Source: Cutaneotrichosporon cavernicola (lineage: Eukaryota > Basidiomycota > Tremellomycetes > Trichosporonales > Trichosporonaceae). Taken from it: DNA of 64,000 nucleotides. Made by a program: the position numbers and the translations under genes. Below, piece after piece: positions 3,934-6,604 of this stretch (its first letter is position 1; each line of letters begins with the position of its first letter). The DNA is taken from assembly GCF_030864355.1 (NCBI RefSeq), contig NC_083393.1, positions 2,542,001 through 2,606,000 of the forward strand. Reading direction: 5' to 3'. A model generated the notes under the pieces. It did no database searches and was not told the origin of the DNA. It worked only from the letters and a program-made list of their open reading frames with translations.

Positions 3934-4093
3934 TTAGTAGTACGATTTTCCGCAGTAGATGCAATAGAACTGGCCCGTGAAATGGTAATAGGCCGGCACG
4001 CATAGGCCTGGTGTCAGCGCTACTGGGTGTGGACCTACGATCCCCTGTCTGCCCTTGGCAGTAGCGCGAGTACGTCTGAGGGCTCGTAGACAT
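3934..4093 (-). CDS. Cys-rich CxxC miniprotein, array member 1 (42 aa)
   Basis: Last gene of a five-member tandem family. Exons are 4093-4039 and 4007-3934, separated by a 31-nt intron (GTAGGT donor, GCTGAC branch, CAG acceptor). The 42-residue product begins MSTSPQTYSRYCQGQTGD and ends QFYCIYCGKSYY. Cysteines fall at positions 12, 21, 34 and 37. The terminal YCIYC is identical to member 3 and equivalent to WCIHC, YCCWC and YCNFC in the others. The intron is phase 1 and sits in the codon two residues before the second Cys, as in all members. This copy has the most diverged front half: the first-to-second Cys gap is 8 residues rather than 12 or 13, and the GNN motif is reduced to GQTGD. There is no signal peptide or membrane segment. 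A four-Cys metal site is an inference. Function unknown. Confidence 0.6.
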
Positions 4094-4581
4094 CGTGTTT
4101 GAGGTAGGGAGTGTGGAGGGTGGTAAAGGTTTTGTGAGGGGGATTGGGAGGTGGAGAAAGCCAGGAGATGGAACGGGCAGTTCCAATGGTATTTTGGCAG
4201 AAGGAGGGATACGAAGTGTAAACTGGCTGCGAGCACAGGAGAGAGAAGAGGGGGGAAATGTCTGGGGGGACCATCTAGATCTGTCCGTTGAGGTTGTCGC
4301 TCTCGTGCTGGGTGTGTATTTCCCGTGTTGTTGGGTGCTGACAGCCCAGAGAACTGGAAACGACTTTGTTGACGAGGCTGTCACTCTGCATTCCCCCGCC
4401 CAACTAGTGCCCAGCCTGAATCAGTCTGAATATTGAGAACGAGTTCCCACTGATTATCCCGCCATAAGACGCACAACCTGGTACGAAGATAATGAAAATG
4501 GAAACGAACATGATAAGGTGCTACGGCGCGAAATCACTGTCTATGTTGAGAGAAAGAGTGCCCGAGCTGGTCAACTATGAA

Positions 4582-4723
4582 TTAGATGAAAGGGCGGAAG
4601 CACCAGCAGCAGTAGGCCTTGCCGTCCATGAGCCAGCGGACCTCGCAGTTGTCTGTGTGAGCGGCGTTATACCAAGTACTCACAGCCGACGTTGTTTCCC
4701 TCCTCGTCACCTGGGCAGGCCAT
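4582..4723 (-). CDS. Cys-rich CxxC miniprotein, array member 2 (36 aa)
   Basis: The shortest member and a good reference for the family core. Exons are 4723-4684 and 4652-4582, with a 31-nt intron (GTGAGT donor, CTCAC branch, CAG acceptor). The product has 36 residues. It opens MACPGDEEGNNVGYNC and closes AYCCWCFRPFI, with cysteines at 3, 16, 28, 29 and 31. The intron splits the Tyr14 codon after its first base (T|AC), exactly as in member 3, and both read GNN-x-G-Y-x-C across the junction. Between the second Cys and the CxxC lie only 11 residues (EVRWLMDGKAY). A T-rich TTTATT lies about 115 nt upstream. Codons strongly favour C/G at position 3. Without splicing the frame hits TAA soon after the junction, so the intron is required to reach the CxxC. 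Confidence 0.65.
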
Positions 4724-5348
4724 GTTGATAGAAGTTGAGTTGTGGGTGGAGTTGTTGAAGCGCTAGCGCTGGAGTTGTGGAGAGACGAGTTGAGTTGAGA
4801 GGAGTCGGATGGAGACAAGGTGGGGAAGAACTGTGAATAAATGCTCTATTCTGAGAGGGGAGAGAGATGAGAGGTGCGAAGCGTGGATGTGTCTGAACAA
4901 GAACGGAGGGATGTTAAGTGTAGTACCGAAGGTGTCTTGTTGATTCGATGAAAATTACATTCGGCCAAACACGCTTCGCTCGCGCGTCATGCATCCAGGC
5001 CATTGAAGCAAACTATACTTGTTTGCATCTACCAGTACCCAGCAACATGCATGACTAGCTGTCATTCCTACCACAGATAGACATGGGTGTGGGGCGCCAA
5101 GTGGCGGATCATGTGTGGCAGGGGTCACGTGAGAACCATGTACACTCCGCCACATCTGCAACTCGGCACCTGTCCGGTTCCCAGTCCGCCTCTCAGTCTC
5201 GACCCGCAGCGCTCGACGTTTGTACAGTCACGACTGCGCTTCTGGAGATACATCTACTGATCTTCTGCTGACGTACGTCTTCGTTATGTCGCAACTGCTC
5301 CTCTCCTTCTCAGTGATCACCAGCAAATCGTCGTACATCCAGGTCTAT
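4724..5348. other. Spacer between array members 2 and 3
   Basis: About 625 nt. It should hold the promoter and 5' leader of member 2. I looked on both strands for a further CxxC exon (YC-x-x-C or WC-x-x-C followed by a stop) and for a GNN-type first exon, and found neither. Confidence 0.5.
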
Positions 5349-5593
5349 CTATCCCTGCGCCGTGTCATAGTCCGTTAAGCAGTAGATGCAGTAGTGCTGG
5401 CCGGACTCTCCCGTAGCGTCCGATTCTCCCTCAGTGTCCGATTCTCCCGTAGTGTCCGATTCTCTCGTAGTGTCCGACTCTCCCGTAGTGTCGATCGCGA
5501 TGAGGCATTCGTCTGTTGTCAGTAGTGTCCGTCATCTTATCTAGACTTACAGCCCTCGTTGTTACCGTCGTCGTCTCCAGTGCAGTTGGGCAT
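5349..5593 (-). CDS. Cys-rich CxxC miniprotein with five-hexapeptide insert, array member 3 (68 aa)
   Basis: Exons are 5593-5551 and 5512-5349, with a 38-nt intron (GTAAGT, ACTGAC, CAG). The product of 68 residues opens MPNCTGDDDGNNEGYEC and ends HYCIYCLTDYDTAQG, with cysteines at 4, 17, 56 and 59. Between the second Cys and the CxxC is an acidic insert made of five hexapeptides of the type ESD-T-T-G, encoded by an 18-bp minisatellite. The front is nearly the same as member 2 and the back matches member 4 (C-x-x-C followed by GYDT or DYDT). The insert lengthens a linker that is 11-14 residues in the other copies, so this spacing tolerates large changes. A TATA-like element lies about 50 nt upstream of the ATG. 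The ATG context is CACCATGCC. This is the best supported member because both halves and the intron codon match other copies. Confidence 0.68.
5404..5493. repeat. 18-bp coding minisatellite, five units
   Basis: Five consecutive 18-nt units of the form GATTCTCCCGTAGTGTCC (plus strand) run from 5404 to 5493, with one to three differences between units. They lie wholly inside exon 2 of array member 3 and keep the frame, encoding a tandem acidic hexapeptide. Unit number is likely to vary between strains. Confidence 0.85.
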
Positions 5594-5643
5594 GGTGTTG
5601 TGGTAGTTGATGGTTAGAGAGGATGAAGGACGGAGGGACCAGC

Positions 5644-5649
5644 TTATAA
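5644..5649 (-). promoter_or_regulatory. TATA-like element of array member 3
   Basis: The minus strand reads GGTTATAAGC here, about 50 nt before the ATG at 5593, followed by a pyrimidine-rich leader. Similar elements lie near 6735 (TTATAAC, about 130 nt before member 5) and near 6085-6091 (CCATAAAA, about 40 nt before member 4). Confidence 0.4.
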
Positions 5650-5884
5650 CCCCAAATGCCGCAACGGCTACGGCGCTAAGGATGGAGCGAGGGCCACTGA
5701 TGTGTGTCGGTGCGACTCGGGGTGGCGCGTTGTGCAGGGGAGTGTGCCGCAGCTCCTCTATCTGATGGAGTTGCCCCGCGATGTGACGAACATTAGTCGC
5801 CTTTACCAGCCTCCTCACCTCGGGTGACGCTACACACTTTACATCTGATTTTACTCTCCGCCTTTCCCCTAGCTCGCACGTGAT

Positions 5885-6049
5885 CTACCCATGGGACGTG
5901 TCGTAGCCAGAGTAGCAGTGGATGCACCAGAGCTGGGGGCGTTCAACGGTCAGGTCAATGACAATGAAGCAAGGCACTGGTCAGCTATAGTGATGGTACG
6001 CACGGTCCTCGTTCTCGCCGGTTTCGGCGTTTCTGGTACAGGTGGGCAT
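5885..6049 (-). CDS. Cys-rich CxxC miniprotein, array member 4 (45 aa)
   Basis: Exons are 6049-6004 and 5976-5885. The intron is only 27 nt (GTGCGT donor, GCTGAC branch, CAG acceptor), the shortest I accept in this window. The product has 45 residues. It begins MPTCTRNAETGENEDLPC and ends LWCIHCYSGYDTSHG, with cysteines at 4, 18, 33 and 36. The junction codon encodes Leu16, followed by Pro-Cys, the same L-P-C seen in member 5. The segment between the second Cys and the CxxC is beta-like and hydrophobic (FIVIDLTVERPQLW). The ATG context is CACCATGCC. The unspliced frame passes a stop before the CxxC, so splicing is needed. There is no signal peptide. Function unknown. Confidence 0.65.
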
Positions 6050-6352
6050 GGTGAGTGACTGGAGAGGAACGGGGGAAGGGGAGTTTTATGGAGGACAGTC
6101 AGGACGGGATGGGAGGCCGACTGGAAGGTTGGGGACGATCATGGCGGAGGGGGAAGAGGGATTGGACTTGCACCGCCGCTGTGTGATGGAAACTTTGCTC
6201 CGACGGCACTGCGCCACCCTCTCTCGCCCCATCGTCATCCGCGACATACAGATTCCCACTCTACGCTCCACTTCACACAGCTGTACTAGTAGTACACAAT
6301 GTATCTCTGAAGATGTACAACTCTATTCTCTAGCCTCTATGCTCTGTTTGCT

Positions 6353-6604
6353 CTACGTCGACGTCGACGCCGACGCCGACGCCGACGCGCTCGAGTCAGA
6401 CTTGGTCTTGGGTGGCGTGGTGGCCAACTCGTCTACCTGGGGCTTGGGCTTGGGTGGCTCGTCCTGCAGGCAGAAGTTGCAGTACAGCACCTCCTCTTCG
6501 GGGCAGAACACGTAGTCGCACGGTACTGAGGTCAGCGCATACACAGGGGAGGACGGACAGCCGTGGTTGTTCCCGTCAAAGGTGCCAGTGCACGTCTTGG
6601 CCAT
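6353..6604 (-). CDS. Cys-rich CxxC miniprotein with Ser/Ala-rich tail, array member 5 (72 or 83 aa)
   Basis: First gene of the array in transcription order. Exons are 6604-6559 and 6525-6353, with a 33-nt intron (donor GTCCGT, branch GCTGAC, acceptor CAG). The donor is weaker than usual. The intron is a multiple of three with no stop, so the unspliced message is also open and would add 11 residues between G15 and the next Cys. The spliced form restores L-P-C exactly as in member 4, which is why I prefer it. The start is MAKTCTGTFDGNNHG, then LPCDYVFCPEEEVLYCNFC (cysteines 5, 18, 23, 31 and 34), then a Pro/Lys-rich stretch and a low-complexity tail of alternating Ser and Ala ending TST. The tail is encoded by a GACGCC-type repeat. 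It is the only member with an extra Cys and a long tail. A TATA-like element lies near 6735. Confidence 0.62.
   Translation of the reverse strand: MAKTCTGTFDGNNHGCPSSPVYALTSVPCDYVFCPEEEVLYCNFCLQDEPPKPKPQVDELATTPPKTKSDSSASASASASTST

Follow-up and report, generated by a model that had tools for sequence, protein, structure and literature searches.

A family of four-cysteine miniproteins with a shared intron position in the yeast Cutaneotrichosporon cavernicola

An array of five two-exon genes

Could a few very short, split frames lying side by side on a fungal contig constitute a genuine gene family? We address this question for a stretch of 64,000 nucleotides (nt) of Cutaneotrichosporon cavernicola (NC_083393.1, positions 2,542,001 to 2,606,000; hereafter the window), where an earlier note had described a tandem array of small cysteine (Cys) proteins. 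Gene models were rebuilt from the sequence, and the array consists of five two-exon genes, all on the minus strand and spanning 6604-3934, which are listed below together with a repeat inside one of them. The coordinates, the protein lengths (72, 45, 68, 36 and 42 amino acids (aa)) and the intron lengths (33, 27, 38, 31 and 31 nt) given in the earlier note proved to be accurate.

6353..6604, minus strand: g1, 72 aa; exon 1 6604-6559, intron 6558-6526 (33 nt), exon 2 6525-6353
5885..6049, minus strand: g2, 45 aa; exon 1 6049-6004, intron 6003-5977 (27 nt), exon 2 5976-5885
5349..5593, minus strand: g3, 68 aa; exon 1 5593-5551, intron 5550-5513 (38 nt), exon 2 5512-5349
4582..4723, minus strand: g4, 36 aa; exon 1 4723-4684, intron 4683-4653 (31 nt), exon 2 4652-4582
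3934..4093, minus strand: g5, 42 aa; exon 1 4093-4039, intron 4038-4008 (31 nt), exon 2 4007-3934
5407..5492, minus strand: 18-nt tandem repeat of 4.8 copies inside g3, encoding a six-residue unit in the loop between the second and third Cys (Cys2-Cys3 loop)

The common architecture claimed for the five proteins was likewise recovered. After splicing, all of them fit C-x(8-13)-C-x(n)-[YW]-C-x2-C, the phase-1 intron lies two residues ahead of Cys2 in each of the five genes, and a turn precedes Cys2 in four of the five proteins (DGNN, TGEN, DGNN and EGNN). The frame of g1 is also open without splicing (83 aa), but the spliced form is the one deposited for its orthologue in Cutaneotrichosporon sp. 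HIS471, which is discussed below. The Ser/Ala tail of g1 is encoded by a 6-nt repeat (5.7 copies, window positions 6355-6388), where the HIS471 orthologue is shorter by two residues.

The introns carry a signal of their own. All five array introns contain CTNAC 1-3 nt before the AG, and four of them the stricter CTRAC; when the members on other contigs (see below) are included, the figures are 10 of 10 and 9 of 10, respectively. As background, CTRAC is found 0-4 nt ahead of 84 of the 7952 AGs in the window, and of 57 of the 3128 YAGs. Since the motif first selected none of the ten genes, it could be regarded as an independent signal. Introns of 30-39 nt are very short for fungi. Of the 45 CTRAC intron-like stretches on the two strands of the window, some of which belong to the array itself, 23 have this length, more than fall in any other length class (versus 3 of 14 and 2 of 8 with decoy motifs), and the adjoining COG4 gene has a 31-nt intron, as read by eye. 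The lengths of the array introns, which likewise played no part in choosing the genes, therefore match the local norm.

The rarity of the arrangement was measured by scans. The strict rule asked, on both strands, for an ATG, a Cys-bearing exon 1, a phase-1 GT-AG intron, x-x-Cys and a later [YWF]CxxC; it returned only the five array genes in the window, and no model in 30 first-order simulated windows. With a looser splice-site rule, the same five genes were obtained, and 160 windows simulated at third order gave 4 models in all. It should be noted that both rules were framed after the finding had been seen, so that they measure rarity and do not constitute a blind prediction. A relaxed scan, in which CTNAC was obligatory but the phase was free and the intron could lie 1-4 residues ahead of Cys2, yielded only ten genes, all in phase 1, from 360,472 bases (167 stretches, with overlaps counted and places partly preselected); on 20.5 megabases of simulated DNA it yielded one model, in phase 0.

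Members on other contigs

Beyond the array, three other contigs (C3, C6 and C7) carry four genes that share its Cys pattern and intron place, and one more gene on C3 resembles them. Positions below are those within the individual stretches.

L070 6723, start about C3:2629722, minus strand: c3a, 73 aa; read around YCxYC sites
L070 3982, start about C3:2626981, minus strand: c3b, 47 aa; read around YCxYC sites
L067 2026, within C6:1508900-1509400, plus strand: c6, 95 aa; read around YCxYC sites
L072 1386, within C7:61400-61700, plus strand: c7, 45 aa; read around YCxYC sites
L058 2604, start about C3:2627955, minus strand: c3c, 46 aa; phase-1 intron with CTGAC, a near-match to the family

The last gene, c3c, is probably a tenth member of the family; its intron lies three residues before the Cys, that is, one codon off, and its Cys spacings (x6 and x15) fall outside the family pattern. 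Together, c3a, c3c and c3b form a second cluster on the same strand of C3, within 2.8 kilobases (kb). The earlier note had spoken of a locally expanded family, and the tandem array is indeed real, but it is not the whole family, as further members lie on three other contigs.

Genome-wide, the YCxYC codon pattern occurs at 45 sites, versus 103 in a reversed control. All 45 were examined, four of which are members (g3, g5, c3b and c7) and two more doubtful. Four further [YWF]CxxC classes comprise 152 sites, including five members (g1, g2, g4, c3a and c6), and no further member was accepted among the 80 of the other 147 sites that were examined. One of these 80, a weak exon-2 match, was dropped because it is without the branch motif and absent from the relaxed CTNAC scan. 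The family thus counts at least nine or ten genes, which is a lower bound with 67 of the 147 sites outside the reading. A candidate on L057 was left out, having a 48-nt intron and no CTNAC, and many models of a looser two-exon scan were dismissed as chance on account of their non-consensus splice sites. The 11 kb flanking the C3 and C7 genes contain no additional members. A DNA pattern from the donor side has three exact matches, all in the array; with no more than two mismatches it has 101, versus 112 in the reversed control, which is background, and the 27 non-array places scanned from it gave no member. Protein searches of the own genome with g2, g1 and g5 each returned the query gene only and are uninformative on copy number.

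Some other features were observed near these genes. Within the C3 cluster, a minus-strand stretch of L070 at about 3443-3342 (C3 near 2626400), which was read only, begins with ATG, Thr and Cys, has an early stop and ends at YCMYC; it looks like a decayed family copy. On the strand that carries c6 (L067, plus, from 1442), some 0.6 kb upstream of that gene, YCIYC occurs 13 residues past a Cys and is followed by a long tail; an AG stands at the family acceptor position, exon 1 is unclear, and no model passed the relaxed CTNAC scan there. By eye, a TATA-like ATAA..CCCAGCCTCT stretch could be seen about 50 bases upstream of the c3b and c6 starts (L070 minus 4066-3982 and L067 plus 1957-2026).

Deposited proteins and searches for relatives

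Several of the proteins have already been deposited in spliced form. P0001 (CcaverHIS002_0109600), a 68-aa hypothetical protein of C. cavernicola found on four contigs, is exactly the spliced g3. P0003 (CcaverHIS002_0606470, 95 aa) and P0004 (CcaverHIS019_0309870, 73 aa) are exactly the spliced c6 and c3a, both of which had been modelled before the protein search returned them. P0002 (CspHIS471_0109320, 70 aa), from Cutaneotrichosporon sp. HIS471, is the orthologue of g1, with 84% identity over 79%, and retains all five Cys of g1 as well as the identical splice place. All four are thus family members, but they are listed as hypothetical or uncharacterized, with no Pfam domain, and are not grouped as a family. 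Conservation in related species, which the earlier note had made decisive, was followed through the protein database, where it holds for this one sister-strain orthologue, with Cys and splice kept. The C. cavernicola assemblies were annotated by BRAKER with mapped RNA sequencing (RNA-seq) reads as hints (PMC10568926). The family genes are therefore likely to be expressed, judging from this hinted annotation rather than from reads at these junctions.

No family in the databases searched matches the proteins convincingly. Pfam gave no match above the curated cut-off (best expect value (E) 0.04), NCBIfam no match for P0001, P0002, g2, g4 and g5, and PHROGs nothing above the cut-off; the weak Pfam and PHROGs matches were judged to be chance or local CxxC likeness. 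The Protein Data Bank (PDB) gave no convincing match either: the best is Bud20, with E of 0.13 and 0.44, and Bud20, RNF213, bromodomain-protein and similar matches (E 0.13 or worse) were rejected as chance or local CxxC likeness. The resemblance to the zf-C2H2_jaz (PF12171)/Bud20 finger is confined to the knuckle, GQHYCIHC in Bud20 versus GQHYCIYC in g3. The Pfam match of this domain to g5 has an E of 5.1, far below the cut-off, and no family member has two His after CxxC, so that the site would be Cys4. In the protein-database searches (132, 7 and 37 candidates), no homologues were found outside C. cavernicola and HIS471; note that such searches depend on shared five-residue words, and Trichosporonales relatives may well be missed. 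A literature search found no description of the family. The four database searches agree with the earlier statement that no described family has this pattern, and the family is apparently previously undescribed and lineage-restricted.

Protein features and relationship among the members

With the exception of c3c, the phase-1 intron lies two residues before Cys2 in all the genes (9 of 10), and the nine members other than c3c all fit C-x(8-13)-C-x(9-14; 38 in g3)-[YWF]-C-x2-C. The spacing between Cys1 and Cys2 is exactly 12 in six of these nine (g1, g3 and g4 in the array), 13 in g2, and 8 in g5 and c3b. The spacing between Cys2 and Cys3 is 9-14, apart from the 38 residues in g3, which are due to the 18-nt tandem repeat. 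Because the loop accommodates this insert, it may lie outside the core, which could be summarized as about 35 residues of the form C-x12 (8-13)-C-x9-14-[YWF]-C-x-[YWFH]-C, with a frequent GNNxG- or xNxG-like turn before Cys2. Nine members contain 4-5 Cys (within the array, the fifth occurs in g1 and g4), and c3c contains 7. The isoelectric point (pI) is 4.1-4.7 in g1-g4 (4.1-4.5) and c3b, 8.4 in g5 and c3a, and 5.1-7.6 in the remainder. No leader-like hydrophobic stretch was found in the ten members by hydropathy alone (12-residue means 0.27-1.75, highest in g2).

The likeness among the members extends past the Cys, since z exceeds 2 in 22 of the 36 pairs of the nine members when sequences are shuffled with the Cys fixed. 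The top scores are g2-g3 (7.7), g3-g4 (6.7), c3a-c7 (5.0) and g5-c7 (5.0); the best-scoring relative of g5 among the members tested is thus c7, on another contig. The shared Cys codons are not uniform at the third base, where 77% are identical. The DNA that the array genes have in common is concentrated in three places (the start, the splice donor and the CxxC; repeat families D3, D5 and D7), a pattern that would fit old duplications with the core retained. Based on the splice signals, the models from an annotation hinted by RNA-seq, the HIS471 orthologue and the 22 of 36 pairs alike beyond the Cys, the paralogous family proposed in the earlier note is upheld, and we regard it as virtually certain that the five genes belong to a real family.

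Putative nature and role of the family

What, then, could these proteins be? The explanation that we consider the best, and moderately probable, is a family of small intracellular proteins, undescribed and apparently confined to one lineage, which are probably Cys4 metal knuckles; a docking role would be the weakest part of this explanation. The family is best read as young; it would have grown by tandem duplication both in the window array and in the second cluster on C3, the remaining copies being single. The knuckle is suggested by the four shared Cys, one pair of them as [YWF]CxxC, together with the mostly acidic chains and the lack of a leader-like stretch. Zinc is the usual ligand of Cys4 knuckles, and a single metal ion, most probably zinc, would be held by the four shared Cys: the CxxC, together with the aromatic residues beside it, would form the knuckle, and Cys1/Cys2 would supply the other half. 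Such a metal site, which the earlier note had also suggested, is plausible, and we give it slightly better than even odds. The acidity of most members argues against nucleic acid binding, so that these apparently leaderless, fast-changing proteins might be small modules that dock onto protein partners in the cell or compete for them, rather than DNA binders, a role that we hold to be doubtful.

A number of observations weigh against this explanation. An AlphaFold model from a four-sequence alignment has a mean predicted local distance difference test (pLDDT) score of 47 and a predicted template modelling (pTM) score of 0.23, which neither favours nor opposes a fold. The gene models rest on sequence and hinted annotation, not on RNA reads; just three of the ten C. 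cavernicola genes were found in the protein database, by protein searches of low sensitivity; and with no homologue found beyond two sister taxa, any long constraint is hypothetical. Outside the shared Cys, identity is 0.39, 0.36 and 0.40 at the three codon positions (in an alignment that misplaced the first Cys of g5), which gives no sign of selection there, and 14 of the 36 pairs are not above z = 2. Among the members themselves, g5 is without the GNN turn, c3c deviates in intron place and Cys spacing, the additional Cys of g1, g4, c6 and c3c would also allow a different chemistry, and the basic g5 and c3a (pI 8.4) and the near-neutral c3c (7.6) disfavour one acidic role.

Several of these points bear on the alternatives as well. 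That chance open frames share the pattern by accident is barely credible: the rule was formulated once the finding was known, but the simulations, the branch-point motif, the deposited spliced models and the HIS471 orthologue contradict it. The transcripts could also be related while their proteins are unmade or unneeded, the genes being decayed or newly arisen and kept by chance, to which the lack of homologues found outside two sister taxa, the near-equal codon-position identity outside the Cys and the degenerate look of one C3 copy would correspond. However, the four Cys, the splice signals and the phase have been retained although introns and flanks diverged, and all Cys are kept in the HIS471 orthologue, so that we consider this improbable.

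The Cys might otherwise serve in metal buffering or in disulfides. Fungal metallothioneins are tiny, leaderless, Cys-bearing and often encoded in tandem, with many CxC/CC clusters, and array growth is a known route to a higher metallothionein dose. The present family shares the size, the apparent absence of a leader, the Cys and the tandem arrangement, but differs in having one CxxC plus two lone Cys. Since nine of the members have just 4-5 Cys each, since g4 alone contributes a CC and a CxC (one of each), and since a store would have no need for the conserved aromatic residues, a minimal metallothionein-like zinc or copper store has a low probability. The same low standing applies to a real family with its Cys in disulfides that is exported by a leader-independent route, peptides that antagonize other microbes being one example. 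Both such peptides and the small secreted Cys-rich proteins of fungi are commonly encoded by small, Cys-patterned, fast-changing and clustered genes, which the family resembles in being short, Cys-patterned, fast-changing and clustered, and the extra Cys in g1, g4, c6 and c3c would suit disulfides. Nevertheless, no leader-like stretch appears in the hydropathy of the ten members, the single CxxC with a fixed aromatic residue is more like a metal knuckle, and most members are acidic, with two basic. The intracellular knuckle family therefore remains our preferred explanation. Going one step further, a Cys4 metal fold of minimal size (about 35 residues) and not seen before may have originated in a single yeast lineage and multiplied in two or more tandem clusters. 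Its copies would vary chiefly in the tail and in the Cys2-Cys3 loop, giving the genome a set of exchangeable small binding modules on a fixed knuckle; we offer this as a tentative and rather unlikely proposal.

Implications

Gene finders skip proteins of 36-47 residues, and consequently most members are absent from the protein database, within the searches made here. The own-genome protein searches returned the query gene alone; a splice-aware motif search can recover miniprotein families that open-frame searches miss. Orphan families of small proteins with a common intron are an ordinary product of duplication, and what stands out in the present case is how tight the four-Cys core is and that a second cluster exists. 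If the explanation is true, the genes would illustrate cleanly how a family of small proteins expands within one yeast lineage; the intron common to its members would be an inherent marker by which others could be found, and a very small metal-binding fold might come with it.

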